NCBI RefSeq assembly: GCF_014879935.1
Contig: NZ_JACSRD010000108.1
Coordinates: forward strand, 1-55,708
Direction of reading: 5' to 3'
Length of the DNA stretch: 55,708 bases
From: Prosthecobacter sp.
GTDB lineage: Bacteria > Verrucomicrobiota > Verrucomicrobiia > Verrucomicrobiales > Verrucomicrobiaceae
Numbering within the stretch: the first letter of the stretch is position 1; every line of letters starts with the position of its first letter. Made by a program: the position numbers and the translations under genes. Shown in pieces: positions 21,164-52,300 of the stretch. The notes below the pieces were generated by a model. That model was not told the DNA's origin and searched no databases. It was given only the letters and a program-made list of their open reading frames with translations.

Positions 21164-22453
21164 TCACGCCTTCAATGCCTCGACGACATCGCCTTTGCTC
21201 AGCACCATGGGGCGGCCGATGGGGGTCATGATCTCCTTGCTGTAATCAATGCCGAAGAGGCTCTGCACAGTCGCGTGCAGATCTTCGACGAAGACCGGGT
21301 TCTCAGGCTCCTTCCTCTCACCCTCAGGGTCCGTGGCGCCAATCACGCGTCCGCCGGCAAATCCGCCGCCCGCCACGAGCATGCTGAAGCCGTGCGGCCA
21401 GTGGTCGCGACCGCCGACGTTGTTGATCTTCGGTGTGCGGCCGAATTCGCCGCCACAGAGCACGATCGTGCTCTCCAGCAGGCCGAGCTTCTTCAAATCG
21501 CGGATCAAAGAGGCATAGGCAGCGTCGAGGATCTTCACCTGGGAGGCCTGGCCTTCGAGATTGTTCGCATGCGTGTCCCAGCCGCTGAGCGTGACCTCGA
21601 CACAACGCACTCCAGCCTGGATCAGGCGCACCGCCGCCAGACAGCCGCGTCCAAACGGGGTGTCGCCATACGCAGCGAGTTCCTTGGCGGGAACATCGCT
21701 CACGTTGAAGGCCTTCAACTGGTCGGAGGTCATCATCTTCCGCGCACGCTGCATGGAGATCTGATGCAGCGTCTTCTCCTCGTCGAGATTCGGCGACCGT
21801 CCCTGCGCAAAGACATTTTCGACCACGGACAGGCCCTCCAGGCGGCGATCCATCCGCTTTTCATCGACGCGTGCCTTCACATCCGGCACCTGCTGCTTGG
21901 GGTCATACATCTGAAAGGCATCGAATTGAGCGCCGAAGAAGCCGCCGCGTGCCGGCCACTGGTTCGGCAGGATGGAGACATGCGTGGGGATCTCGATCTT
22001 CGCCTCTGGCAGCTCATGGCAGACAATAGCGCCAATGCTCGGGTGAATGAGCGTGGGATCAGGCCGATAACCGGTCTTGATGTTGTAAAAGGCACGCTCG
22101 TGATCCCCTTCCTTGCTGACCATGGACCGGATCAGCGACACATCCTTCATCACGCTGGCCGTCTGCTCGAGGCCTGAGGCGAATTCGACGCCTTTGATCG
22201 CGGTCGGGATCGTTTTGACACCGCCGCCAATCTTCGTGGTCGGATGCGGATCGAAGGTGTCGAGCTGACTGGCCGCGCCTCCTAGCCAGAGCAGGATCAC
22301 CGAGCGCGCTGGCTTTCCCGACGGAGCCTTTTCCGCCTCCACAGCCAGCAAATCGGCCAGCGGCGTGAGCCAGGAGAGCCCGGCGATGCCCGTGCCACGC
22401 AGGACCGAGCGACGGCTGAGGTGTGAGTGGCTTTGGCAAGGAGAGATGTTCAT
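21164..22453 (-). CDS. DUF1501 exported protein
   Basis: A 429-residue protein of the DUF1501 family (sulfatase-like fold), with a twin-arginine signal (SRRSVLRGTGIAG, from residue 13). The sequence 'ILLWLGGAASQLDTFDPHP' near the start and 'ILCGGEFGRTP..GGRDHWPHGFS' near the end are family hallmarks. Function is not established; the family is greatly expanded in Planctomycetes and Verrucomicrobia and almost always lies beside DUF1549/DUF1553 genes, as here (71 bases downstream of one). Export by the Tat route suggests a folded or cofactor-bearing periplasmic protein. Confidence 0.92.
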   Translation of the reverse strand: MNISPCQSHSHLSRRSVLRGTGIAGLSWLTPLADLLAVEAEKAPSGKPARSVILLWLGGAASQLDTFDPHPTTKIGGGVKTIPTAIKGVEFASGLEQTASVMKDVSLIRSMVSKEGDHERAFYNIKTGYRPDPTLIHPSIGAIVCHELPEAKIEIPTHVSILPNQWPARGGFFGAQFDAFQMYDPKQQVPDVKARVDEKRMDRRLEGLSVVENVFAQGRSPNLDEEKTLHQISMQRARKMMTSDQLKAFNVSDVPAKELAAYGDTPFGRGCLAAVRLIQAGVRCVEVTLSGWDTHANNLEGQASQVKILDAAYASLIRDLKKLGLLESTIVLCGGEFGRTPKINNVGGRDHWPHGFSMLVAGGGFAGGRVIGATDPEGERKEPENPVFVEDLHATVQSLFGIDYSKEIMTPIGRPMVLSKGDVVEALKA

Positions 22454-41187: not shown

Positions 41188-42255
41188 ATGACCTACCGCA
41201 TCTCCCAGCGCGACCTCGCGAAAATCGCCGGTGTCTCGCCCATGACCATCTCGCTGGCGTTGCGGGATCATCCGTCGATCTCCGCCTCGCGACGCGAGCA
41301 CATCCGCAAGCTGGCGAAGAAGCATGGTTATCAGCCGGACCCTGCGCTGGCGGCTTTGAACGCGTATCGCATCAACAACCGCGCGAAACGCTACCAGGGC
41401 ACGCTTGCATGGCTCACCAGCTTTCCAAGCGCCGATGGCTGGCGGCGCATGATTCATGCGGAAGGCTATTTCAATGGTGCCTGCAAACGCGCGGCGGAGC
41501 TGGGCTATCAAGTCGAGCCGTTTTGGGTGAACGGGCCGGGTCTCACACCGAAACGTGCGGCGCAGGTGTTGCTCGCCCGCGGTGTGCAGGGCCTCATCGT
41601 CGCGCCGCTGCCGGACAAGCAAAACGTGCTCGCCTTTGACCTGAAACCCTTCTCCGCCGTCGCGCTCGGCTACTCGCTGCGACAGCCGCAGCTTCATGTC
41701 GTGATGAATCATCAGGCGCGGAACATGAAGCACACCGTGCATCAGCTTCATGCGCTTGGTTATCGACGCATCGGCCTCGCGCTGCCCTCCGCCAGCAATG
41801 CCCGCGTCGATCAAAACTACCTCAGCGGCTACCTCATCGCCCAGCGCGAGACCGCCAGCGACCGTCTGGAGCCGCTGCTCGCCGATGTCTTCGACGCGAG
41901 CGCCTTCATGAAGTGGTTCCGCGAGACCGAACCGGACGCCGTCATCGTCTCCGGCTCCTGGACCACGCAAGTCACCGCCTGGCTGAAAAAAGCCGGCCTC
42001 GAAGTCCCCAAGCACCTCGGCCTCGCCACCGCCTCCATCCCAGATGCTCCCACAAACATCAGCGGCATGGACGAAAGCCCCGCCCTCATCGGCCGCATGG
42101 CCGTCGATGCCGTCGTCGGGATGATTCATCGTCAAGAGCGCGGCATTCCCGATCATCCGTCGAGCCTGCTCGCCGAAGGAAAATGGTCCGCTGGCAAGAC
42201 GGCGCGGAAGGTGATCGCAAAGAGCCCACGTCATCGAATCCGCGAAGCAAAGTAG
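41188..42255 (+). CDS. LacI-family transcriptional regulator
   Basis: A 355-residue regulator. The N-terminal helix-turn-helix and hinge are clear ('ISQRDLAKIAGVSPMTISLALRDHPSISASRREHIRKLAKKHGYQPDPALAALN'), followed by a periplasmic-binding-protein-like effector domain ('GVQGLIVAPLPDKQN', 'LGYRRIGLALPSASNARV', 'LGLATASIPDAPTNISGMDESPALIGRMAVD'). It is divergent from the oxidoreductase-transporter-BNR-ribokinase operon and convergent with the fructokinase-MFS pair, so it probably controls one or both in response to a sugar. The C-terminal codons and stop fall in the left end of an inverted REP-like repeat. Confidence 0.92.
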   Translation: MTYRISQRDLAKIAGVSPMTISLALRDHPSISASRREHIRKLAKKHGYQPDPALAALNAYRINNRAKRYQGTLAWLTSFPSADGWRRMIHAEGYFNGACKRAAELGYQVEPFWVNGPGLTPKRAAQVLLARGVQGLIVAPLPDKQNVLAFDLKPFSAVALGYSLRQPQLHVVMNHQARNMKHTVHQLHALGYRRIGLALPSASNARVDQNYLSGYLIAQRETASDRLEPLLADVFDASAFMKWFRETEPDAVIVSGSWTTQVTAWLKKAGLEVPKHLGLATASIPDAPTNISGMDESPALIGRMAVDAVVGMIHRQERGIPDHPSSLLAEGKWSAGKTARKVIAKSPRHRIREAK

Positions 42256-42360
42256 TCCTCTCGCTCCGCGAGAGGAACTCAGCGCTTTCGATGGGTTCGA
42301 CGTCATCGCGTTCGCGAACGCACAAGGCTCATCTCGACGGAGCGAGATGGCTACTTTGCT
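42246..42360. repeat. Inverted pair of REP-like units containing both gene stops
   Basis: Outer arms AGCAAAGTAG (42246-42255) and CTACTTTGCT (42351-42360) are perfect inverted copies; the TAG of the LacI gene and the reversed TAG of the kinase gene lie inside them. Within are a 9-bp hairpin (42256-42276), a 14-base palindrome GCGTTCGCGAACGC (42308-42321) and a 7-bp hairpin (42330-42349). Read inward from each end, the units match closely (AGCAAAGTAG, then TCTCGCTCCG shared). The shape is that of a BIME-like element or a four-way cruciform. Confidence 0.65.
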
Positions 42361-43241
42361 CTCGCCAAAAACGCCCCCATCTCCGGCATCGCACCGGGCT
42401 GGGAGCACACGTAGCTCGCGTGGCGAATGGCTCGCGTGCCTGCTTCAGCGAGCGAGTGTCCGGCGAGCAGGCTGGTGACGAGGGCGGCGGTGAAGGAGTC
42501 GCCGGCTCCGACGGTGTCGGCGAGGTGTTCGGGAGGCTGGCCGGGGAGGTCGTGGCGGTGGTCGCGGGTGACGAGGGTGGCTCCGTTCGCACCTCGCGTG
42601 AGGGCGATGGTTTGCAGCGGGTAGTGGGCGAAGAGATGCGCGAAGACCTCGGGCTCATCGGACGCGCAGCCGAGCATGGCGGCGAGTTGCGGGAGTTCTT
42701 CGTCGTTGAGTTTGAAGAGCGTGGCGGTGGCGAGCGAGTCGAGCACGACCTCGCTCGTGAAATGCGGGGGACGCAGGTTGATGTCGAAGATGCGCAGGCA
42801 ATCGGGTCGCGTGGCGGCGAGGAACTGGCGCAACGTATCACGCGAGACTGGTGAACGTTGCGCGAGGCTGCCGTAGCACACGGCATCGGCACGGGCGGCG
42901 AGTGCGAGTAGCTCCGGCGAGCACAGGATCATGTCCCACGCGACGTTTTCGACGATGGTGTAGCTCGGCTGGCCGTTCGCATTCAGCGTGATAGGCACGG
43001 TGCCGGTGGGATGCGTTTTGAGCGTGGAAATGAAGCGTGTGTCGAGTCCGACGGCGCGGAGTTGATCGAGAGCACGTTGGCCGAGATCATCGTCGCCGAT
43101 GGCGCTGACGATGTGGACCTCCGCGCCGAGCACATGCGCGTGATAGGCGAAGTTGCCGGGTGCGCCGCCGAGTTGGGCACCGGCGGGCAGCAGGTCCCAC
43201 AGCAGCTCGCCAAAGCCGATGATGACCGGTTTGTCGCTCAT
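42351..43241 (-). CDS. PfkB-family sugar kinase, fructokinase-like
   Basis: A 296-residue PfkB kinase resembling fructokinases: 'GFGELLWDLLPAGAQLGGAPGNFAYHAHVLGAEVHIVSAIGDDDLG' at the N-terminus, 'NDEELPQLAAMLG', and the ATP-site signature DTVGAGDSFTAALVTSLL with its catalytic Asp. Fructokinase would follow naturally from the GH32 proteins and the MFS porter in the same run. Its start overlaps the stop of the MFS gene (ATGA at 43238-43241). Its stop lies in the right end of the REP-like repeat. Confidence 0.87.
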   Translation of the reverse strand: MSDKPVIIGFGELLWDLLPAGAQLGGAPGNFAYHAHVLGAEVHIVSAIGDDDLGQRALDQLRAVGLDTRFISTLKTHPTGTVPITLNANGQPSYTIVENVAWDMILCSPELLALAARADAVCYGSLAQRSPVSRDTLRQFLAATRPDCLRIFDINLRPPHFTSEVVLDSLATATLFKLNDEELPQLAAMLGCASDEPEVFAHLFAHYPLQTIALTRGANGATLVTRDHRHDLPGQPPEHLADTVGAGDSFTAALVTSLLAGHSLAEAGTRAIRHASYVCSQPGAMPEMGAFLARAK

Positions 43242-44593
43242 GAATGAATGCCGAGTTGTTTCTGAATGTCCTCCAGCGACACGCCTTTCGTCTCAGGCAC
43301 CATCGTTTTTACCCACACGAGCTGTAGCACCATCATGAAGGTGAAAAATAGAAACACCCAGCCCGGCGGAAACGCGCTGACCATCGCGGGAAAGAAGGTG
43401 GTGAGCAGCGCGGCAAAGACCCAGTGCGTGGCACTGCCGAGCGCCTGACCGGTGGCGCGATGGCGGTCCGGAAAAATCTCCGAGATGAAGACCCAGATGA
43501 CCGCGCCCTGGCCGATGGCATGCGCGGCGATGAAGGCAAAGATGCACGCGGGCACGATGCTGAAGTGCTCCGTGAAAAACGCCCACGCGCACAGCCCGAG
43601 CGACGCGATGTAGCCGAACGAACCGATGACGAGCAGCGTGCGTCGGCCGAGACGGTCGATGAGCCACAGGCCGGCAAAGGTGAAGACGAGATTCGTGATG
43701 CCGATGCCGATGGACTGCAGCAGCGCGGCCTGAGCGCCGAGTCCGGTCATTTCAAAGATGCGTGGGGCAAAATAGAGCACCGCATTGATGCCGGATAGCT
43801 GGTTGAAGAAGGCGATCAGGAAGGCCAGCAGGATCGGCACGCGATGTTTCGTGCTCCAGAAGCCATGCGAGCTGGCTGCGTCATGTTTCGCAGCAGAAAG
43901 GATCTCCGCGGCGTTAGCCTCGATGATCGCCGATGGGGCCTGAGGCTGGATTTGACGCAAAACAGCCAGTCCGGCCTCGCGGTCGGCTTTTCGCGTGAGC
44001 AGCCAGCGCGGACTCTCGGGCAAGGTGAAGCACATCAGCGTGTAAAACAGCGCGGGAACGGCCTCCACGCCGAGCATCCACCGCCACGCATGCTCACCAA
44101 TGCCGCCGAGGAGGTAGTTCGAGAGAAAAGCCACGAGGATGCCAAAGACGATGTTGAACTGAAACATGCCCGCGAGGCGTCCGCGACGATCCGGCGGCGA
44201 AATCTCGGTGATGTAGAGCGGCGCGGCCACGGTGGAAATACCCACGCCGAGACCGCCGATGAAGCGTGCGATGATGAGCGACCAAACTTCCGGCGCGATG
44301 CCCGACCACACCGCCGAGACAAAGTAGAGCACGCCCACCCAGATGAGCGTCTTTTTGCGTCCCCAACTATCCGTGGGCCACCCACCGATGAGCGAACCCA
44401 ACACAGTGCCATACAGCGCTGAAGCCATCGCCACGCCGTGCATGGCATCGCTCAGCTTCCACAGCGACTGGATCGTCTTTTCCGCGCCAGAGATGACGAC
44501 GGTGTCAAAGCCGAACAAAAAGCCAGCGAGTGCCGAGGTGATGGCCCAGAGGAAAAGGCGCGGATTGGCGGTGGTTGGTTGGGTTGGTGTCAT
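43238..44593 (-). CDS. MFS sugar porter
   Basis: A 451-residue transporter with 12 hydrophobic segments of the sugar porter family: 'GFLFGFDTVVISGAEKTIQ' in helix 1, 'DSWGRKKTL' in loop 2-3, 'GRFIGGLGVGIS', 'PLYITEISPPDRRGRLAG', 'PESPRWLL', 'QLSGINAVLYFAPRIFE' and 'VPETKGVSLEDIQ' at the end. All are marks of hexose importers such as those for fructose, glucose or xylose. It overlaps the fructokinase gene, which supports hexose uptake followed by phosphorylation. It lies 16 bases after the DUF1016 gene. Confidence 0.93.
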   Translation of the reverse strand: MTPTQPTTANPRLFLWAITSALAGFLFGFDTVVISGAEKTIQSLWKLSDAMHGVAMASALYGTVLGSLIGGWPTDSWGRKKTLIWVGVLYFVSAVWSGIAPEVWSLIIARFIGGLGVGISTVAAPLYITEISPPDRRGRLAGMFQFNIVFGILVAFLSNYLLGGIGEHAWRWMLGVEAVPALFYTLMCFTLPESPRWLLTRKADREAGLAVLRQIQPQAPSAIIEANAAEILSAAKHDAASSHGFWSTKHRVPILLAFLIAFFNQLSGINAVLYFAPRIFEMTGLGAQAALLQSIGIGITNLVFTFAGLWLIDRLGRRTLLVIGSFGYIASLGLCAWAFFTEHFSIVPACIFAFIAAHAIGQGAVIWVFISEIFPDRHRATGQALGSATHWVFAALLTTFFPAMVSAFPPGWVFLFFTFMMVLQLVWVKTMVPETKGVSLEDIQKQLGIHS

Positions 44594-44609
44594 AATGATC
44601 GTTGAGGCT

Positions 44610-45809
44610 CTATTTGCTGATCTTCGTCCGGCTCCATTCGTCGAGTTTTTGCTTCAGCAGTTCCTTCGAGGGCAAGTAGAGCTGATACTCCTTGGCGTGG
44701 ATGTTGGCGTCTTTGGGCAGGGTGAGCTCGACGACGGTCTTTTTGGCCGATTTGCAGAGGAGTAGGCCTATGGTGGGGTTTTCATCGGGCAGCTTCACTT
44801 CGCGGTCGTAGTAGTTCACATACATCTGCATCTGGCCGAGGTCCTGATGCGTGGCTTTGTCGAGCTTGAGGTCGATGATGACGTAGCAACGCAGGAGGCG
44901 ATTGTAGAAGACGAGATCGACGAAGTAGTGGTCTTCATCGAAGGTGAATCGTTTCTGGCGTGCCTCGAAAAGGAAGCCTTTGCCGAGTTCGAGTAGAAAG
45001 TGCTCCAAGCGGTCGATGATGGCCTGTTCGAGGTCGGTTTCCGAGTAGCCGGATTTTTCTTCCAGGCCCAGGAACTCCAGCACCAGCGGCTCCTTCAGCA
45101 TGTCCTCGGGCTTCATCATGACCTGCCCCTCCTTGGCCAATCGCCGGATGCCCGCTTTGTCCCGACTGAGCGCCAGCCGCTCGTAGAGGCAGGAGGCTTT
45201 CTGGCGCTTCAACTCCGGCACCGACCAGCCAGCGTTAGTTGCCTCGATCTCGTAGAAGCTGCGTTCATCCGGGTCTTTGATGGTGAGAAGCAGAACGTAG
45301 TGCGACCAGCTCAAGGTGAAGGGGTTTCCCAATTTCCCAATAGGCTGTTGGGAAATAGTAAGCGCTTCAGATTTGCCAGAAGGCTTCTGGCAAATCTTCG
45401 ATGTCTCAGATTTTTCAGTCGCCGACTGAAAAATTTGTCCGCCGAGCAATTTACCAGAAGGCTTCTGGCAAATCGAAGAGACCTTGGGTTGCCACTCGAT
45501 AAAGAAGGCTCGCATCGCCTGGAGGTTCGACCGCGAAAACCCTCTTCCAAACTCCTCCGTCAGCCTCGCGGACAGCTCCTTCAGCAGCTCCGTGCCATAC
45601 GCCGCCCGCTTGGCTCCTTTCTGCTCGTGCTCGACGATGCGGCGACCGATTTCGTAGTTGGTCATCACCTGGAAGGTGTCCACGACACTAGCGACACCAC
45701 GGCGGGCACTCTGGATGAGCTGGCGCACCTCGGTAAGCAGACCTTTGAGGCTGTCTGGCCTGGCTTTGGCCGTGGTGAGCAAGTTTTTGGAGGCGGACGG
45801 CTTTTTCAT
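44610..45809 (-). CDS. DUF1016 (YhcG-like) PDDEXK nuclease with palindromic repeat insert
   Basis: A 399-residue protein. The N-terminal DUF1016_N domain (about 20-110: 'LTEVRQLIQSARRGVASVVDTFQVMTNYEIGRRIVEHEQKG', 'GRGFSRSNLQAMRAFFIEWQPKV') and a C-terminal PDDEXK nuclease domain (from about 270: 'DEDHYFVDLVFYNRLLRCYVIIDLKL') are intact. Between them residues 113-159 hold four 8-residue units (ICQKPSGK, IFQSATEK, ICQKPSGK, ISQQPIGK) with 5-residue spacers, each unit encoded by a DNA palindrome. The family is linked to genome defence and mobile DNA, but its function is not settled. The gene interrupts a sugar-use gene run, suggesting insertion. Confidence 0.88.
   Translation of the reverse strand: MKKPSASKNLLTTAKARPDSLKGLLTEVRQLIQSARRGVASVVDTFQVMTNYEIGRRIVEHEQKGAKRAAYGTELLKELSARLTEEFGRGFSRSNLQAMRAFFIEWQPKVSSICQKPSGKLLGGQIFQSATEKSETSKICQKPSGKSEALTISQQPIGKLGNPFTLSWSHYVLLLTIKDPDERSFYEIEATNAGWSVPELKRQKASCLYERLALSRDKAGIRRLAKEGQVMMKPEDMLKEPLVLEFLGLEEKSGYSETDLEQAIIDRLEHFLLELGKGFLFEARQKRFTFDEDHYFVDLVFYNRLLRCYVIIDLKLDKATHQDLGQMQMYVNYYDREVKLPDENPTIGLLLCKSAKKTVVELTLPKDANIHAKEYQLYLPSKELLKQKLDEWSRTKISK
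45332..45473. repeat. Four 25-base palindromes at exact 39-base period inside the DUF1016 gene
   Basis: Units lie at 45332-45356, 45371-45395, 45410-45434 and 45449-45473. Each is an inverted repeat with arms of 9-12 bp around a 1-3 base centre (GGC in three). The arms differ between units (ATTTCCCAA, ATTTGCCAGAA, ATTTTTCAGTCG, ATTTACCAGAA on the plus strand), yet each arm matches its own partner, with at most one mismatch or wobble. Spacing is 39, 39 and 39 bases, so the reading frame is kept. Confidence 0.9.
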
Positions 45810-45906
45810 GAGGCGTGTCTGAGCTTGGTGAACAGGCCCTGCCTTTTCAAGGTGGAAGAAAGCAGCGAGTGGCAGTGGTTGCGTTCATACATGGGCAGAC
45901 GGCGGC

Positions 45907-48174
45907 TTAGAACACCGGCATCATCTTCCACGCTTCGAGCGACTTCACGGTCATCTCGCCATCGCGGGTGAAGAGCTTCACGCCGAGGCTGTCCTTGCGA
46001 GCCGGATAAATGCGCTGCGTGAGGCATTGGCGCTCATTCACGAAAACTTCGAGAATGCTGCGATCGAGGAAAACTCGCACGCGAACGGGCTCGTCGGCCT
46101 TCAACGGCATCGGCGCGACTTGCTCGGTGATGTCCTTGAAGTTGCCTTCCGCGCCGGATTTCGTGAGTTCGGTGCGCAGAGTCTGTTTGGGCAACGAGAG
46201 CACGATGGGCGTTTGCTCTTTGCCATCGGGCGAACAGCGCACGGCGAGGCCAAACTCCTTTGCGCTGTCGGGTTCGATGATCAGGCGAAGCTCCAGGCTG
46301 TCGCCGCGGATGTCGTCGAGCGTGAGGTCGCGTGTGGCGCTCACTTTGAGGTCGGTGTGACGACGTTCGTCGTAGCGCAGGGATTCGAGTTCGGGCGCGG
46401 GTTCGATCTTCAACTCGCCATCGTCATGCAGCGAAAAGAGTCGCGGCAGCGTGGCTACGGAGCCCCAACCTTTGCTCGTGGCCCCTTTGCGAGCCTCGCG
46501 CACCCAGCCCCAGAAGATGCGGCGGCCTTTCGCATCGAGCAGCGTCTCCGGCGCGGCGAGATGACCGCCGGGCCAGTTCATTTTGCCATGTCGCTCCGGC
46601 GTGAAGCGCTCGGCCTTCGCGTCCCAGGTGCCAATGTAATACTGCGCCTGAAAATACGGCATGTGCGTGTGCATGAGCAGCATGTGCTTTCCCTGGCCGA
46701 TGGGATAAAAATCCGGGCAGGCGCAGTCCTCGACCTCGGTGGTCCACTTGCGATCCGATTGGTAAAACGGGCCGCGGTATTCCCACTTCAGCAAGTCACG
46801 CGAGCGATACAGGCTCGTCGTGTCGCCCTCGAAGCCGGGGCGTTTGTTTTTGTTGCCGATGAGCGCGTAGTAGAGGTCGCCCTCCTTCCACGCGAAGGGA
46901 TCAAAGATGACGACTTCCTCCGGCGCACCTTCGAGCTTGATGACCGGGTTCTCTTGGATCGGCTGCCATTCGATCAACTCGGGATCGTCCGCATTCACCG
47001 GCTTCGCGATGGCCGTGCCTTGGCCGGGAATGTGGTAGATCAGCGTCGGAACGTCCGCGCCGTCGATCATGTCGCCGCTGTAGAACCCTTTCGGCTGCGA
47101 GCCATCGAACACCGGCCGCAACGACGTGCCGCGATACACCCAGTGCACGAGATCCGCGCTGGAGGCATGCGTCCACTCCTTGCGATTCGTGCCGACATCG
47201 CCGCCGCTCAAAACCGTGGCCGCGTCCGGCGCGATGAGGCTCTGGAAAAACACATGGTAGCGACCCTTCCAAAATACCGTGCCGTTGATGTCATTCCACA
47301 CGCCATCCGGCGTGCCGAGATGCCAGCGCGGACGCAAGGGATCGCTCTGAATCTGCTCCCGCAGTTCGCGAGCCGCGCGGAGTTTGTCCACGAGCTTCAA
47401 ATCATCGCGCCCGGTGACCTTCTCGATCTCGCGCAGTCGACCCGTGTTCTTTTCCGCAATCGCCTTCGCTCCACCACTCAACGTCGCCACCTCCGCATCG
47501 CTCAAGGCCCGCGTCCACACCGCCGCATGATCCACCTGGCCGCGCATCGCCTTCCCGAGCGTGAAAGGCAGCTTGTTCTCCGCCCGCAAATGTCCCGCGA
47601 CCTTCACCGAGCCCGCCGCCACGCCATCGACGAAGAGCAGCAGCTTCGCGCCATCGAATCGAGCGATCACATCATGCCATCCGCCCTTCGTGATGCTCTC
47701 CAACGGCACCGCCAGCCTTCCCGCGAGCCCCTTTTTCTCCTGCACGCCCAACTCAAAGCCCAGCTCGCCCTTGTTCACATGCAGATTGAACAAGGTCACC
47801 TCATGCCCGCCATGCCGAGCGAACACCTCGCCGCTCTTCCAAGCCTCACCACCACCCCGCACCCGCAGCAAAACCGTCATCGCTTCCCCCGCGATGCTCA
47901 GCGGCCCCTTCTCACCGATCACCTCCGTCAAAACGCCCCCCTCAAACACCGCCACCTTCCCATCGCCACCACGAGCAAGTGATTCGTCCCGCTCCTTGCC
48001 CTTCAACTCCACGCCGACCTTCACCGCGCCGTCGGCTTTCATCATGACACCACTCGAAGCCGCCAAGCCATCCAGCTGCAAAACCAGGACCGCGTCTTTG
48101 AAGATGTCCTTTGGCTCGAAGGCATGAGCGGTGAGCGAAAATGCGAGAGTGAGGCTGAAGAGGCGCGTGAGCAT
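45907..48174 (-). CDS. Exported LamG-like plus GH32-like protein, catalytic site altered
   Basis: A 755-residue exported protein (signal MLTRLFSLTLAFSLTAHA). Residues 25-245 look like a concanavalin/LamG sugar-binding domain ('MTVLLRVRGGGEAWKSGEVFARHGG', 'WHDVIARFDGAKLLLFVDGVAAGS'). From about 280 there is a GH32 five-blade propeller and C-terminal beta-sandwich ('FLDRSILEVFVNERQCLTQRIYPA'). The nucleophile site NDPNG reads NDING with Asp295; the RDP site reads FDP (Asp425); and the acid/base EC site reads AC (Ala485), though Glu482 lies three residues before. It may be a weak, altered or binding-only member. The true GH32 gene is 22 bases upstream. Confidence 0.8.
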   Translation of the reverse strand: MLTRLFSLTLAFSLTAHAFEPKDIFKDAVLVLQLDGLAASSGVMMKADGAVKVGVELKGKERDESLARGGDGKVAVFEGGVLTEVIGEKGPLSIAGEAMTVLLRVRGGGEAWKSGEVFARHGGHEVTLFNLHVNKGELGFELGVQEKKGLAGRLAVPLESITKGGWHDVIARFDGAKLLLFVDGVAAGSVKVAGHLRAENKLPFTLGKAMRGQVDHAAVWTRALSDAEVATLSGGAKAIAEKNTGRLREIEKVTGRDDLKLVDKLRAARELREQIQSDPLRPRWHLGTPDGVWNDINGTVFWKGRYHVFFQSLIAPDAATVLSGGDVGTNRKEWTHASSADLVHWVYRGTSLRPVFDGSQPKGFYSGDMIDGADVPTLIYHIPGQGTAIAKPVNADDPELIEWQPIQENPVIKLEGAPEEVVIFDPFAWKEGDLYYALIGNKNKRPGFEGDTTSLYRSRDLLKWEYRGPFYQSDRKWTTEVEDCACPDFYPIGQGKHMLLMHTHMPYFQAQYYIGTWDAKAERFTPERHGKMNWPGGHLAAPETLLDAKGRRIFWGWVREARKGATSKGWGSVATLPRLFSLHDDGELKIEPAPELESLRYDERRHTDLKVSATRDLTLDDIRGDSLELRLIIEPDSAKEFGLAVRCSPDGKEQTPIVLSLPKQTLRTELTKSGAEGNFKDITEQVAPMPLKADEPVRVRVFLDRSILEVFVNERQCLTQRIYPARKDSLGVKLFTRDGEMTVKSLEAWKMMPVF

Positions 48175-48196
48175 AAAAGGGTAATGAAAGCGGTTT

Positions 48197-49897
48197 TCAG
48201 TTCTTCTTGGAAATCGGCCACACCGACTTCAACTCATGCACATCGAGTGACACGATCTTCGCTTCACCGCCGGAGGCTGTGAGCTTCGGCGCGATGCGGG
48301 CTTCAGCATTCGGCATGTGCTGGAAGGCGCCGAACTTGAAGCCCTTGTCGGTGAAGATTTCGATAAGGCTGTGGTCGCTGAGGAGGCGGAGATCGAGGCG
48401 GCCTTCGCGGATGGGCATGGGCATGCTGGCTTTGCCGCTGGTGAGTTTTTGCTTCTTCACGTCGATGACGAAGGGCGTGCCGCGCAGGTCGAACGTGATC
48501 TCCGTGGCGGTGCCGACGTCGATGACGGCGTGGAGGTCGAAGAAAGGCGTCTGCACGTCGTGGAGCGGATCGCTTTGCGCATTCAGCACGCTTGCGGCGA
48601 TGGCGTGATGCTTCGCGCGGAGCGTTTCGATCTCACGCACTGGCTGCCAGACGAGGCGCGGGCCGCGACCGGTGTTTCGCAGCGTGATTTCGCACGGGAT
48701 GTTCATCATCTGCGCGAAGGGCATGCCGGGGAAAAAGTTGTCGCCCATCTTGGCCCAGCCTTGCTGCACGACGCGGCCATCGCGCATGTCGCTGTAGTTT
48801 TGACCAGCGTAGTAGGCGCTGCCATAGGGCCCGTGCAGCAAATCACTGGTGCGCGTGAAGTTCCGCCCGTCGAAGTCGCCCACGAAATACTCGCCGAGAC
48901 CGCCGTGGACGATCCACTTCGTCTTCTCGGTGCCTTCGATCTTCATCGGGAAAAGATCCGGGCACTCCGCAAAGCCGATGACGCTGCCCTCGCGCTTCCA
49001 CTGCTTCAAATCGGGCGAGGTGAAGAAGACGAACTCGCCTGATTTGCGCGTCGGGTCCTTCGGATCAATCGGCGGGAGCTTTTTGCCCTTCTCGGTGCAA
49101 TGCAGGATCATGACCCAGAGCTGCGTGGGCTCGTGCCAGAAGACTTTGGGGTCACGATTGTTGTGCGCCACCTCCGGCAGCACCGGATTCCCCGCATACT
49201 TCGTCCATGTGCGACCGCGATCATTGCTGAAGGCGAGCCGTTGATCGCGCGGCGGTCCCGTGGCGGTGTAGATGAGCACGAGCGGCGGTTCTTTGCCCGT
49301 TTGGAAGCCCGTCGTGTTCTTCCAATCCACCACGCCCGAGCCGGAGAACATCATGCCCTCGCCCTCCGCATGAATCGCGATGGGCAGCTCCTCCCAGTGC
49401 AGGAAATCGCGGCTCACCGCATGCCCCCAGCTCTTGCTGCCGCTTTTCACGCCGTAGGGATGCAGTTGGTAAAACAGATGATGCTCGCCGTCGTAGTGCA
49501 GCAGGCCGTTCGGATCATTCAGCCGTCCGCGCATCGACGTAAAATGAAACTGCGGTCGCCACGTCTCCGCATACACCGGCACGCTCGTCTTGATTTCATC
49601 GCCACTCTCGATGGCAGCGATCACCGCTGCGGGGCCATGCAAAATCGCCGACTGTCCCTTCCACGCCGTGACATCGAGAAAGATATAAAATTCCGGCTTC
49701 TTCTCGCTCGTGAACTCAATCTCAAACTCCCGCACCTTCTTGCCTCCGACTTCCAGTTTCACGAGCTGTTTCGGTGCACCGTTGCACACCGGCAGATTCA
49801 GCAATCGCGCATCAAGCGTGAGCGAACGAGTGGCTTCCTCCTGTGCGTGAGCGTGGGCGAAGCACGAAAGAGCGATGAGAAGATGGCGAAGGTTCAT
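48197..49897 (-). CDS. Exported GH32 fructan hydrolase (levanase/invertase type)
   Basis: A 566-residue protein with a signal peptide (MNLRHLLIALSCFAHAHA), an N-terminal beta domain (about 25-110) and a GH32 domain with all three catalytic motifs intact: RLNDPNGLLH (nucleophile Asp), NNRDPKVFWH (transition-state Asp) and FAECPDLFP (acid/base Glu), plus a C-terminal beta-sandwich ('LLSDHSLIEIFTDKGFKFG'). It should release fructose from levan, inulin or sucrose outside the cytoplasm. Fructose uptake by the MFS porter and phosphorylation by the PfkB kinase downstream complete a simple route. Confidence 0.92.
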   Translation of the reverse strand: MNLRHLLIALSCFAHAHAQEEATRSLTLDARLLNLPVCNGAPKQLVKLEVGGKKVREFEIEFTSEKKPEFYIFLDVTAWKGQSAILHGPAAVIAAIESGDEIKTSVPVYAETWRPQFHFTSMRGRLNDPNGLLHYDGEHHLFYQLHPYGVKSGSKSWGHAVSRDFLHWEELPIAIHAEGEGMMFSGSGVVDWKNTTGFQTGKEPPLVLIYTATGPPRDQRLAFSNDRGRTWTKYAGNPVLPEVAHNNRDPKVFWHEPTQLWVMILHCTEKGKKLPPIDPKDPTRKSGEFVFFTSPDLKQWKREGSVIGFAECPDLFPMKIEGTEKTKWIVHGGLGEYFVGDFDGRNFTRTSDLLHGPYGSAYYAGQNYSDMRDGRVVQQGWAKMGDNFFPGMPFAQMMNIPCEITLRNTGRGPRLVWQPVREIETLRAKHHAIAASVLNAQSDPLHDVQTPFFDLHAVIDVGTATEITFDLRGTPFVIDVKKQKLTSGKASMPMPIREGRLDLRLLSDHSLIEIFTDKGFKFGAFQHMPNAEARIAPKLTASGGEAKIVSLDVHELKSVWPISKKN

Positions 49898-52243: not shown

Positions 52244-52300
52244 AGTCGATTGGCAATCGACTGGTTTGGAGAGGATTCGGCTTCGATTATGGATCGAAGC
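52244..52300. repeat. Two hairpins between BNR genes, REP-like
   Basis: AGTCGATT-GGC-AATCGACT (52244-52262) and GCTTCGAT-TATGG-ATCGAAGC (52280-52300) are perfect 8-bp hairpins in the 75-base gap. The second is followed by TACTTC, so on the minus strand GAAGTAGC precedes the hairpin right after the stop of the gene at 52305, as AAAGTAGC does at 42350-42357. They may be relatives of the 42246-42360 element. Confidence 0.5.

Follow-up and report, generated by a model that had tools for sequence, protein, structure and literature searches.

The window, the whole stretch of 55,708 nucleotides that was analysed, carries on its minus strand a DUF1016/YhcG nuclease gene whose coding sequence contains four palindromes. 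The features of the locus were located as follows.

44610..45809, minus strand: DUF1016_N plus YhcG_C (PDDEXK) gene of 399 amino acids; ORF with Pfam matches PF17761 and PF06250 over the cut-off, PADLOC PDC-S02
45177..45731, minus strand: DUF1016_N, helical in the model and interrupted by the linker insertion (Pfam match and AlphaFold)
44643..45104, minus strand: YhcG_C PDDEXK nuclease domain (Pfam match)
45330..45475, minus strand: linker coding region (about residues 112–160), in which three unrelated spacers separate the four units
45449..45473, minus strand: palindrome unit 1 in gene order, ICQKPSGK; 11/12 pairs, one G-U in the mRNA
45410..45434, minus strand: palindrome unit 2, IFQSATEK; 12/12 pairs
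45369..45397, minus strand: palindrome unit 3, ICQKPSGK, the longest; 14 pairs (its 25-nt unit starts at 45371, 12/12 pairs)
45332..45356, minus strand: palindrome unit 4, ISQQPIGK; 11/12 pairs, one C-A in the mRNA
44569..45910, no strand assigned: segment flanked by sugar transporter and GH32-like genes that a close relative lacks (empty site, locus L432)

DUF1016_N (residues 27–211, 128 bits) and YhcG_C (residues 236–389, 173 bits) were the sole matches of the protein at E ≤0.001, and no sequence relative was found in the PDB at E up to 1. PADLOC lists the protein as defence candidate PDC-S02. The AlphaFold model was moderate (pTM 0.50); a Foldseek search with the whole model gave weak matches, the best being a Pyrococcus repair endonuclease (NucS) and EndoMS (E 0.003–0.01, none below 0.001). 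YhcG_C was placed near YraN-like proteins and archaeal Holliday-junction resolvases by Kosinski and others, according to the accessible text of their paper (PMC1189080). For E. coli, the accessible part of another study reports that yhcG deletion is synthetic lethal with dnaB, dnaN and parE hypomorphs and that yhcG is associated with HsdMRS and McrABC (PMC2672614). A Sphaerotilus DUF1016 gene lies within a type I restriction operon; a common partner gene was not found in four other plasmid contexts inspected. The relative with the empty site is 95–96% identical in DNA and has the same two neighbours, so that the window gene is an accessory segment, in a locus that by eye looks devoted to sugar use. 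Transposon ends were not found at the gene borders when the empty site was inspected by eye: the boundary was diffuse, with neither target duplication nor palindrome.

A sequence-only reading of this DNA had described four 25-base palindromes at a 39-base period and in frame. Starts at 45332, 45371, 45410 and 45449 bear this out, the unit peptides it gave are correct in gene order, and the G-U in the mRNA is indeed the sole non-Watson-Crick pair of the first unit (45449–45473). Unit 4 (45332–45356), which is followed by a conserved LSWSHY segment, also has one mispair, the C-A in the mRNA, absent from the earlier description. The palindromes had been placed between the N-terminal domain and the nuclease; their actual position is inside the DUF1016_N match, as an insertion separating its conserved halves. 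As single-stranded DNA, unit 3 folds into a hairpin of −12.7 kcal/mol (z −6.3). When the gene was recoded in 2,000 synonymous-codon shuffles, the linker held no palindrome in 1,935, one in 65 and never more than one, against four in the real sequence; elsewhere in the whole 55.7-kb window, two palindromes reached a score of ≥9. In the 7.74-Mb assembly, the pattern ATTT-NN-CA-N9-TG-NN-AAAT (one loose pattern, which does not stand for every palindrome of the assembly) had four sites, all of them the four units of the window gene.

DUF1016 genes were collected from relatives (matches in 32 of 56 genomes), species genomes (the best 80 of 590 candidates) and viral contigs (seven loci), and with the Pfam model from the own phylum (50/145 genomes) and three further classes (28/60, 41/185 and 31/148). 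From 315 hits, 32 incomplete genes, 35 duplicates and 16 near-identical genes were removed, leaving 232, and linkers were delimited by HMM columns. Record titles of the species-genome matches (best 80 of 590), mostly MAG labels, named Verrucomicrobia, Planctomycetota, Nitrospira, Proteobacteria, Acidobacteria, Bacteroidetes, Firmicutes (Lachnospiraceae) and others. At least one palindrome was present in 171 of the 232 non-redundant genes, in the same linker as in the window gene, and in 157 of 217 when 15 genes obtained through pattern searches were excluded; by source, the palindrome-bearing genes numbered 20/22, 58/70, 2/6, 31/43, 16/26, 15/28, 14/21 and, for E. coli, 1/1. These linkers (24.1 kb for the 232 genes) contained 235 palindromes, compared with 0–5 in 20 synonymous shuffles. 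The rest of the same ORFs (233.5 kb) contained 21, and other ORFs of earlier loci 14 in 396 kb (0.035 per kb). An earlier, smaller set of 111 genes gave an agreeing result. Units were mostly 25–33 nt long, and 39 nt was the mode of their spacing (33/74). Unit number varied between relatives, a comparison that the sequence-only reading had proposed. Its suggestion of an expandable linker does not hold as the main point, because most genes with the shortest linkers keep one unit: 17 of 32 genes with ≤12 amino acids and 47 of 71 with 13–25 amino acids still had one. Neither the peptide without palindromic DNA nor uncompensated arm changes, the two outcomes that the same reading had set against itself, is the rule in the family; 61 of the 232 genes, however, have no palindrome over the threshold.

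Pairing percentages on palindrome-selected units are partly circular, and the unselected version is a fixed-site test, in which all 103 genes with a linker of ≤25 amino acids were scored at one site centred 12 nt before the LSWSH codons, the sequences being unweighted by phylogeny. At distances 2–9 from the centre, at least seven of eight Watson-Crick pairs were present in 81/103 genes, with 3.1 expected when arms were swapped between genes. The eight columns were paired in 0.72–0.87 of genes, versus 0.28–0.55 after shuffling. The innermost pair (k=1) was weak (0.69 versus 0.55), so pairing up to the very centre is not claimed. Among palindrome-bearing genes, 69 units were centred exactly 12 nt before LSWSH. 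The covariation score on these 69 palindrome-selected units was 0.756, compared with 0.173 after shuffling (0/500 as high) and 0.05–0.15 when the site was slid. All four pair types were present at distances 6–8; the unit ends (AATT) were mostly conserved, the interior varied with compensation, and the centre base was C or G.

Copies were also found outside the ORF. A near copy of the gene's own linker palindrome stood upstream of the predicted start in 4/222 genes (L348, L385, L406 and L414; 16–17 of 18 arm positions), with 0.17 genes expected from the units of other genes, a control that covers the upstream side. A fifth upstream match, in L050, was an artefact of a contig end and was left out. 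No stop codon interrupts the frame across the copy in L385 and L406, so that there its status as untranslated rests on the predicted start; in L414 an ATG with a ribosome-site-like stretch closely follows the copy. A promoter-like match stands 5′ of the leader unit in L406; in L130 no such match was found on the gene's strand. On the 3′ side, copies past the stop codon were seen in two genes, L408 (18/18 arm positions) and E. coli K-12 yhcG (16/18). The latter is a perfect 25-nt palindrome 15 nt past the stop, between yhcG and nanQ, and is untranslated. Three genes (L130, L395 and L407) have a perfect or near-perfect leader palindrome and none over the threshold in the linker. As a class, and with linker units of even length included in the count, leader palindromes were not in clear excess (4/37 genes without a linker unit, 7/181 with one, 6/170 control leaders; Fisher P 0.10 and 0.08). 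One hit among the control leaders (L197) resembles a unit of the DUF1016 palindrome family.

Most units at a score of ≥9 share one reading frame (224 of 235), while seven lie in another frame and four are of even length; in L056 and L057 the same palindrome is read in two frames and gives different peptides. A recurrent unit peptide, [IK]-x-Q-T-x-S-x-K, is what a pure peptide repeat with DNA symmetry as its by-product would offer, a reading to which practically no probability is given: the symmetry is abolished by synonymous shuffling, the units of other frame or even length do not follow it, and the K-12 unit past the stop codon encodes nothing. Chance and peptide-only readings were both rejected by the synonymous shuffles together with the fixed-site test. 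Neither the peptide, the frame nor the spacers is the kept feature. The earlier claim that symmetry of the nucleic acid is kept, and not the peptide alone, thus gains support from arms that change together, from the loss of palindromes on synonymous recoding, and from units in other frames and outside the ORF.

The G-U pair of the first unit could be read as a hint of a fold in the mRNA. The units would fold as RNA too, and the leader unit of L406 with its T run is terminator-like, both of which would suit an mRNA hairpin controlling translation or mRNA decay. Against it, G-U was no commoner than A-C across the family: 258 units read on the mRNA strand had 31 G-T and 93 A-C cells, and the unselected fixed-site set (k=2–9) had 20 G-U and 32 A-C among 824 cells. 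The tolerance of G-U above A-C in the transcribed strand that marks structured RNA was thus absent, which makes such a hairpin very improbable.

The sequence of the units follows the gene. In 50 multi-unit genes, arms differed at 2.2 of 8 positions within a gene versus 4.1–4.5 between genes, and bases k=2–5 were shared at 0.80–0.91 within versus 0.38–0.81 between genes. The 12-nt spacers were no closer within a gene than by chance (identity 0.289 versus 0.281), and nine within-gene unit pairs with identical arms had spacer identities of 0.26 and 0.31. Because the spacers next to identical units are unrelated, an origin by tandem duplication of 39 nt was rejected. Paralogues of one genome (17 gene pairs) had units as unlike as those of unrelated genes; an excess of orthogonality between such paralogues was looked for in the same 17 pairs and was absent (P 0.31). 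In 34/50 genes the units resembled one another more than they did the nearest homologue; where a close orthologue exists, they were closer to each other than to those of the orthologue in 11/21 multi-unit genes only. Changes within genes at the outer pairs (distances 6–9) were compensated in 134 cases, one-sided in 30 and unpaired on both sides in 16, compared with 62, 56 and 13 at the inner pairs. These counts suggest that the core acts as a gene-specific sequence and the outer part as a stem.

The specificity of the units to DUF1016 was examined with a pattern derived from them (ATT-N3-CAGA-N5-TCTG-N3-AAT), which was scanned in 47 homologue-bearing genomes. It had 44 sites in 26 genomes, 41 of them inside a DUF1016 match or at most 150 nt from one, including two (L129 and L130) just upstream of the start. 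Of the three sites elsewhere, one (L185) was chance-like and two (L128 and L139) were perfect, solitary and intergenic, L128 adjoining an ORF with a Fic-like motif (by eye) and L139 following a glutamine synthetase-like ORF. Of 185 genomes from another class, three had the pattern and 41 a DUF1016 match, so that the pattern covers only part of the units. In the viral-contig and other-class loci, the matches listed included at least 128 pattern sites, 110 of which had at most three of the five free pairs; of the 18 better-paired sites among the matches listed, seven lay close to a DUF1016 match and the other 11 did not, so the palindrome shape is not exclusive to the family. Three results led to the rejection of a genome-wide repeat family: all four hits in the assembly of the window lie in the gene itself, the units of paralogues are unrelated, and 41/44 sites are at DUF1016.

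Several of these observations would suit a tiny mobile palindrome, almost confined to DUF1016 genes and their flanks, that copies itself in either orientation in the manner of a gene-bound Rickettsia palindromic element. Identical units amid unrelated spacers, one palindrome in two frames (L056 and L057), a centre base of C or G (suggestive of both orientations), the solitary intergenic copies L128 and L139, a variable unit number and a unit of L133 in the N-terminal region, where its peptide fits, all point this way, and the reading gains from the copies 5′ and 3′ of the gene. It is nevertheless considered unlikely, if the least so of the alternatives. Such an element is not common to the paralogues of one genome and is rare elsewhere in the genomes searched; a fixed position (the 69 units 12 nt before LSWSH) and a 39-nt mode are ill-suited to free insertion, and occurrence in distant bacteria suggests a use. 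The palindromes could also have no function at all, if fold-back template switching in replication copied arm onto arm in a linker whose peptide is unimportant. This would give Watson-Crick symmetry and compensated change without selection, and residues 116–159 of the window linker are predicted to be disordered (AlphaFold pLDDT <50, no secondary structure). Its improbability follows from three points: palindromes do not build up in other ORFs (the 0.035 per kb given above), the site has a fixed place in short-linker homologues, in one of which it falls within a confidently modelled segment, and flank copies of the same sequence are left unexplained.

Alleles of E. coli bear on a further alternative. 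K-12 yhcG has three coding units 39 nt apart, two with stem mismatches. Among 5,426 E. coli genomes, a yhcG match was found in 4,417, with ≥80% of the gene covered in 3,310. In 60 evenly sampled rows, the match ended at base 406, the edge of palindrome 3, in ten (two inspected) and started at base 385, inside palindrome 3, in two (one inspected, beside IS1). Differences among 12 aligned yhcG sequences clustered at bases 240–540, around the units, and some homologues were incongruent between their N and C parts. Breaks and clustering of this kind would be expected if the palindromes were recombination or diversification sites, with cruciforms that provoke breaks and the swapping of unit arrays or of N- and C-terminal modules. 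Other breaks of E. coli yhcG nevertheless lie elsewhere (bases 235 and 1060), those at 406 look like a single event, and the N/C correlation among homologues, 0.77 against 0.88 inside the C part, is mildly lower and lends mild support to shuffling of the two parts. Recombination may be a consequence of the palindromes; as their role it is improbable, about as much so as template switching.

What calls for explanation is a constraint on the DNA itself, at a set position, in a sequence that follows the gene and has copies outside the ORF. The leading explanation, tentatively preferred on the strength of these patterns, is that DUF1016/YhcG genes carry gene-private, cis-acting palindromic DNA sites that the encoded nuclease would recognise; a target for its own product was among the proposals of the sequence-only reading. 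The site would usually lie in coding sequence just before the LSWSH segment, some genes having an enlarged linker in which several units are arrayed, and a few a site also, or instead, beside the ORF. The protein, which combines a helical domain with a PDDEXK nuclease akin in type to junction- and mismatch-acting enzymes, would be the reader and might act as a dimer or on a hairpin. Its sequence recognition would rest on the gene-specific core (pairs 1–5 from the centre), and the outer stem (pairs 6–9), varied and yet paired, would make a DNA hairpin or cruciform the recognised form. Two points favour such a form over plain duplex DNA: the outer stem changes within a gene while remaining paired, and the protein resembles junction-acting nucleases. 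Binding or nicking at the site could then curb expression of the gene or label it as self, self-limited expression being the probable outcome. That such control exists is shown by C.Kpn2I, for which a site inside its own ORF blocks RNA polymerase, a measured precedent in the accessible text of PMC6237814. More tentative still is the broader proposal that DUF1016/YhcG proteins might be self-addressed nucleases, each reading a private hairpin or cruciform encoded in and around its own gene, and thus natural cognate protein–hairpin pairs whose specificity could be read from the gene.

Several points weigh against self-read sites. A 39-nt period is a non-integer number of B-DNA turns, and some units are 3′ of the gene, where a leader operator is not expected; such units, with leaders in no clear excess, lower the confidence. 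Copying of palindromes could account for the likeness of cores within a gene. Well-paired sites also occur away from DUF1016, the 61 genes have no unit over the threshold, and the contrast with orthologues holds in the 11/21 only.

Protein-coding palindromes as such are already known from Rickettsia palindromic elements (RPE), PARCEL repeats and nematomorph mitochondria, and on a cautious reading the DUF1016 palindromes may be a variant of these. RPE are likewise palindromic DNA within ORFs that stays in frame; unlike the present units they are about 100–150 nt long and scattered over many genes and intergenic sites of a genome (see also the accessible text of PMC4316617). The DUF1016 units mostly measure 25–33 nt and cluster, across many bacteria, in and next to a single gene family. 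PARCEL elements are, in the accessible text of PMC2996958, tandem protein repeats with dyad symmetry in the DNA, variable in sequence and widely distributed like the DUF1016 units; they differ in being 75-nt, 25-residue amphipathic repeats of DUF285 type with imperfect symmetry. The units of the window have nine residues and near-perfect symmetry, occupy a fixed place in a nuclease gene and, in the family, also occur outside the ORF. In nematomorph mitochondria, inverted repeats are similarly kept together with coding capacity; there, as far as the accessible text of PMC6649704 describes them, the repeats are long (to 284 bp) and belong to mitochondrial genes of few animals. C.Kpn2I shares with the DUF1016 palindromes a site within the gene's own coding region and a setting in DNA-restriction biology; it is, unlike them, a small controller of one restriction–modification system whose gene product was shown to bind the site (accessible text of PMC6237814). 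DUF1016 genes also have a symmetric site inside the ORF, as an operator of the C.Kpn2I kind would require. They differ in that the gene encodes a nuclease and the candidate site varies by gene, may be arrayed or lie beside the gene, and has a paired stem; as to its being specific to the gene, the comparisons with spacers, unrelated genes and paralogues and the flank copies speak for this, with a mixed result for close orthologues (11/21).

The extragenic position and high copy number of REP/BIME elements did not apply to the DUF1016 units. Integron attC sites vary in sequence and keep their folding, and REP elements are short palindromes; neither is known to occur in the ORFs of one gene family. 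No description of palindromes in DUF1016/YhcG genes was found among the open-access PMC papers listed for the family, PDC-S02, coding palindromes or Rickettsia-type elements. The palindromes were rated as a new kind because the defining features of RPE and PARCEL were examined and found not to apply, and because a position-fixed, gene-following palindrome that is also found outside the ORF matches no kind known to us.

The widespread YhcG nuclease, a defence candidate whose E. coli gene has reported replication phenotypes, has no known function. A palindrome that is specific to each gene and recurs in distant bacteria offers a concrete clue to what YhcG reads and makes tests of substrates immediate, K-12 yhcG providing three coding units and one past the stop. 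The DUF1016 palindromes are also a large-scale case of coding sequence that preserves DNA symmetry. If each protein does read the palindrome of its own gene, sequence alone could reveal a very large number of cognate protein–DNA pairs.

In the E. coli K-12 yhcG locus (L201), a perfect 25-nt palindrome (L201:8971-8995) lies 15 nt after the stop of yhcG, in the gap separating the convergent genes yhcG and nanQ, and is alike at 16 of 18 arm positions to the second coding unit of K-12 yhcG. The gene itself is polymorphic in E. coli (L201:7828-8955, compared with the further E. coli loci L202-L216) and the differences between alleles are concentrated around the palindromes; units were lost with a frameshift in two strains inspected, and the 3' part of the gene was replaced recurrently, the replacement beginning at the edge of palindrome 3.

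Palindromes were also located outside DUF1016 genes. In locus L139 a solitary perfect palindrome with the DUF1016-unit consensus (L139:1497-1529) is placed 22 nt 3' of a glutamine synthetase-like ORF, and an apparent GC-rich tandem array comes after it. The arm of this palindrome is matched by one unit in the DUF1016 gene L184, which belongs to the same genome. Another perfect solitary palindrome (L128:1501-1525) is found close to the end of a contig and lies upstream of an ORF in which inspection by eye showed a Fic-like motif. The IMG/VR contig L295 carries two adjoining DUF1016-type palindromes sharing a common AATT (L295:9938-9985) in a region with no long ORF, and one further DUF1016-type palindrome (L300:8089-8113) has no DUF1016 match nearby.

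Palindromes were additionally observed elsewhere in or before DUF1016 genes. One unit (L133:1501-1525) is situated inside the N-terminal coding region, where the encoded peptide is in keeping with the surrounding family sequence. The stretch upstream of the predicted start of L062 holds two palindromes, centred 70 and 31 nt before that start and 39 nt apart, which is the period seen in linkers.

In the window, only two other palindromes scored at least 9 (52244-52262 and 21457-21474), and in the window's own genome L004 is a DUF1016_N fragment that is broken and contains two stop codons. By eye, the neighbours of the DUF1016 gene are:

41188-49897: LacI-type regulator, PfkB-like kinase, sugar transporter and two GH32-like genes

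From their appearance these look like a fructan/sucrose-use locus, which is interrupted by the DUF1016 gene; a close relative is without this gene.
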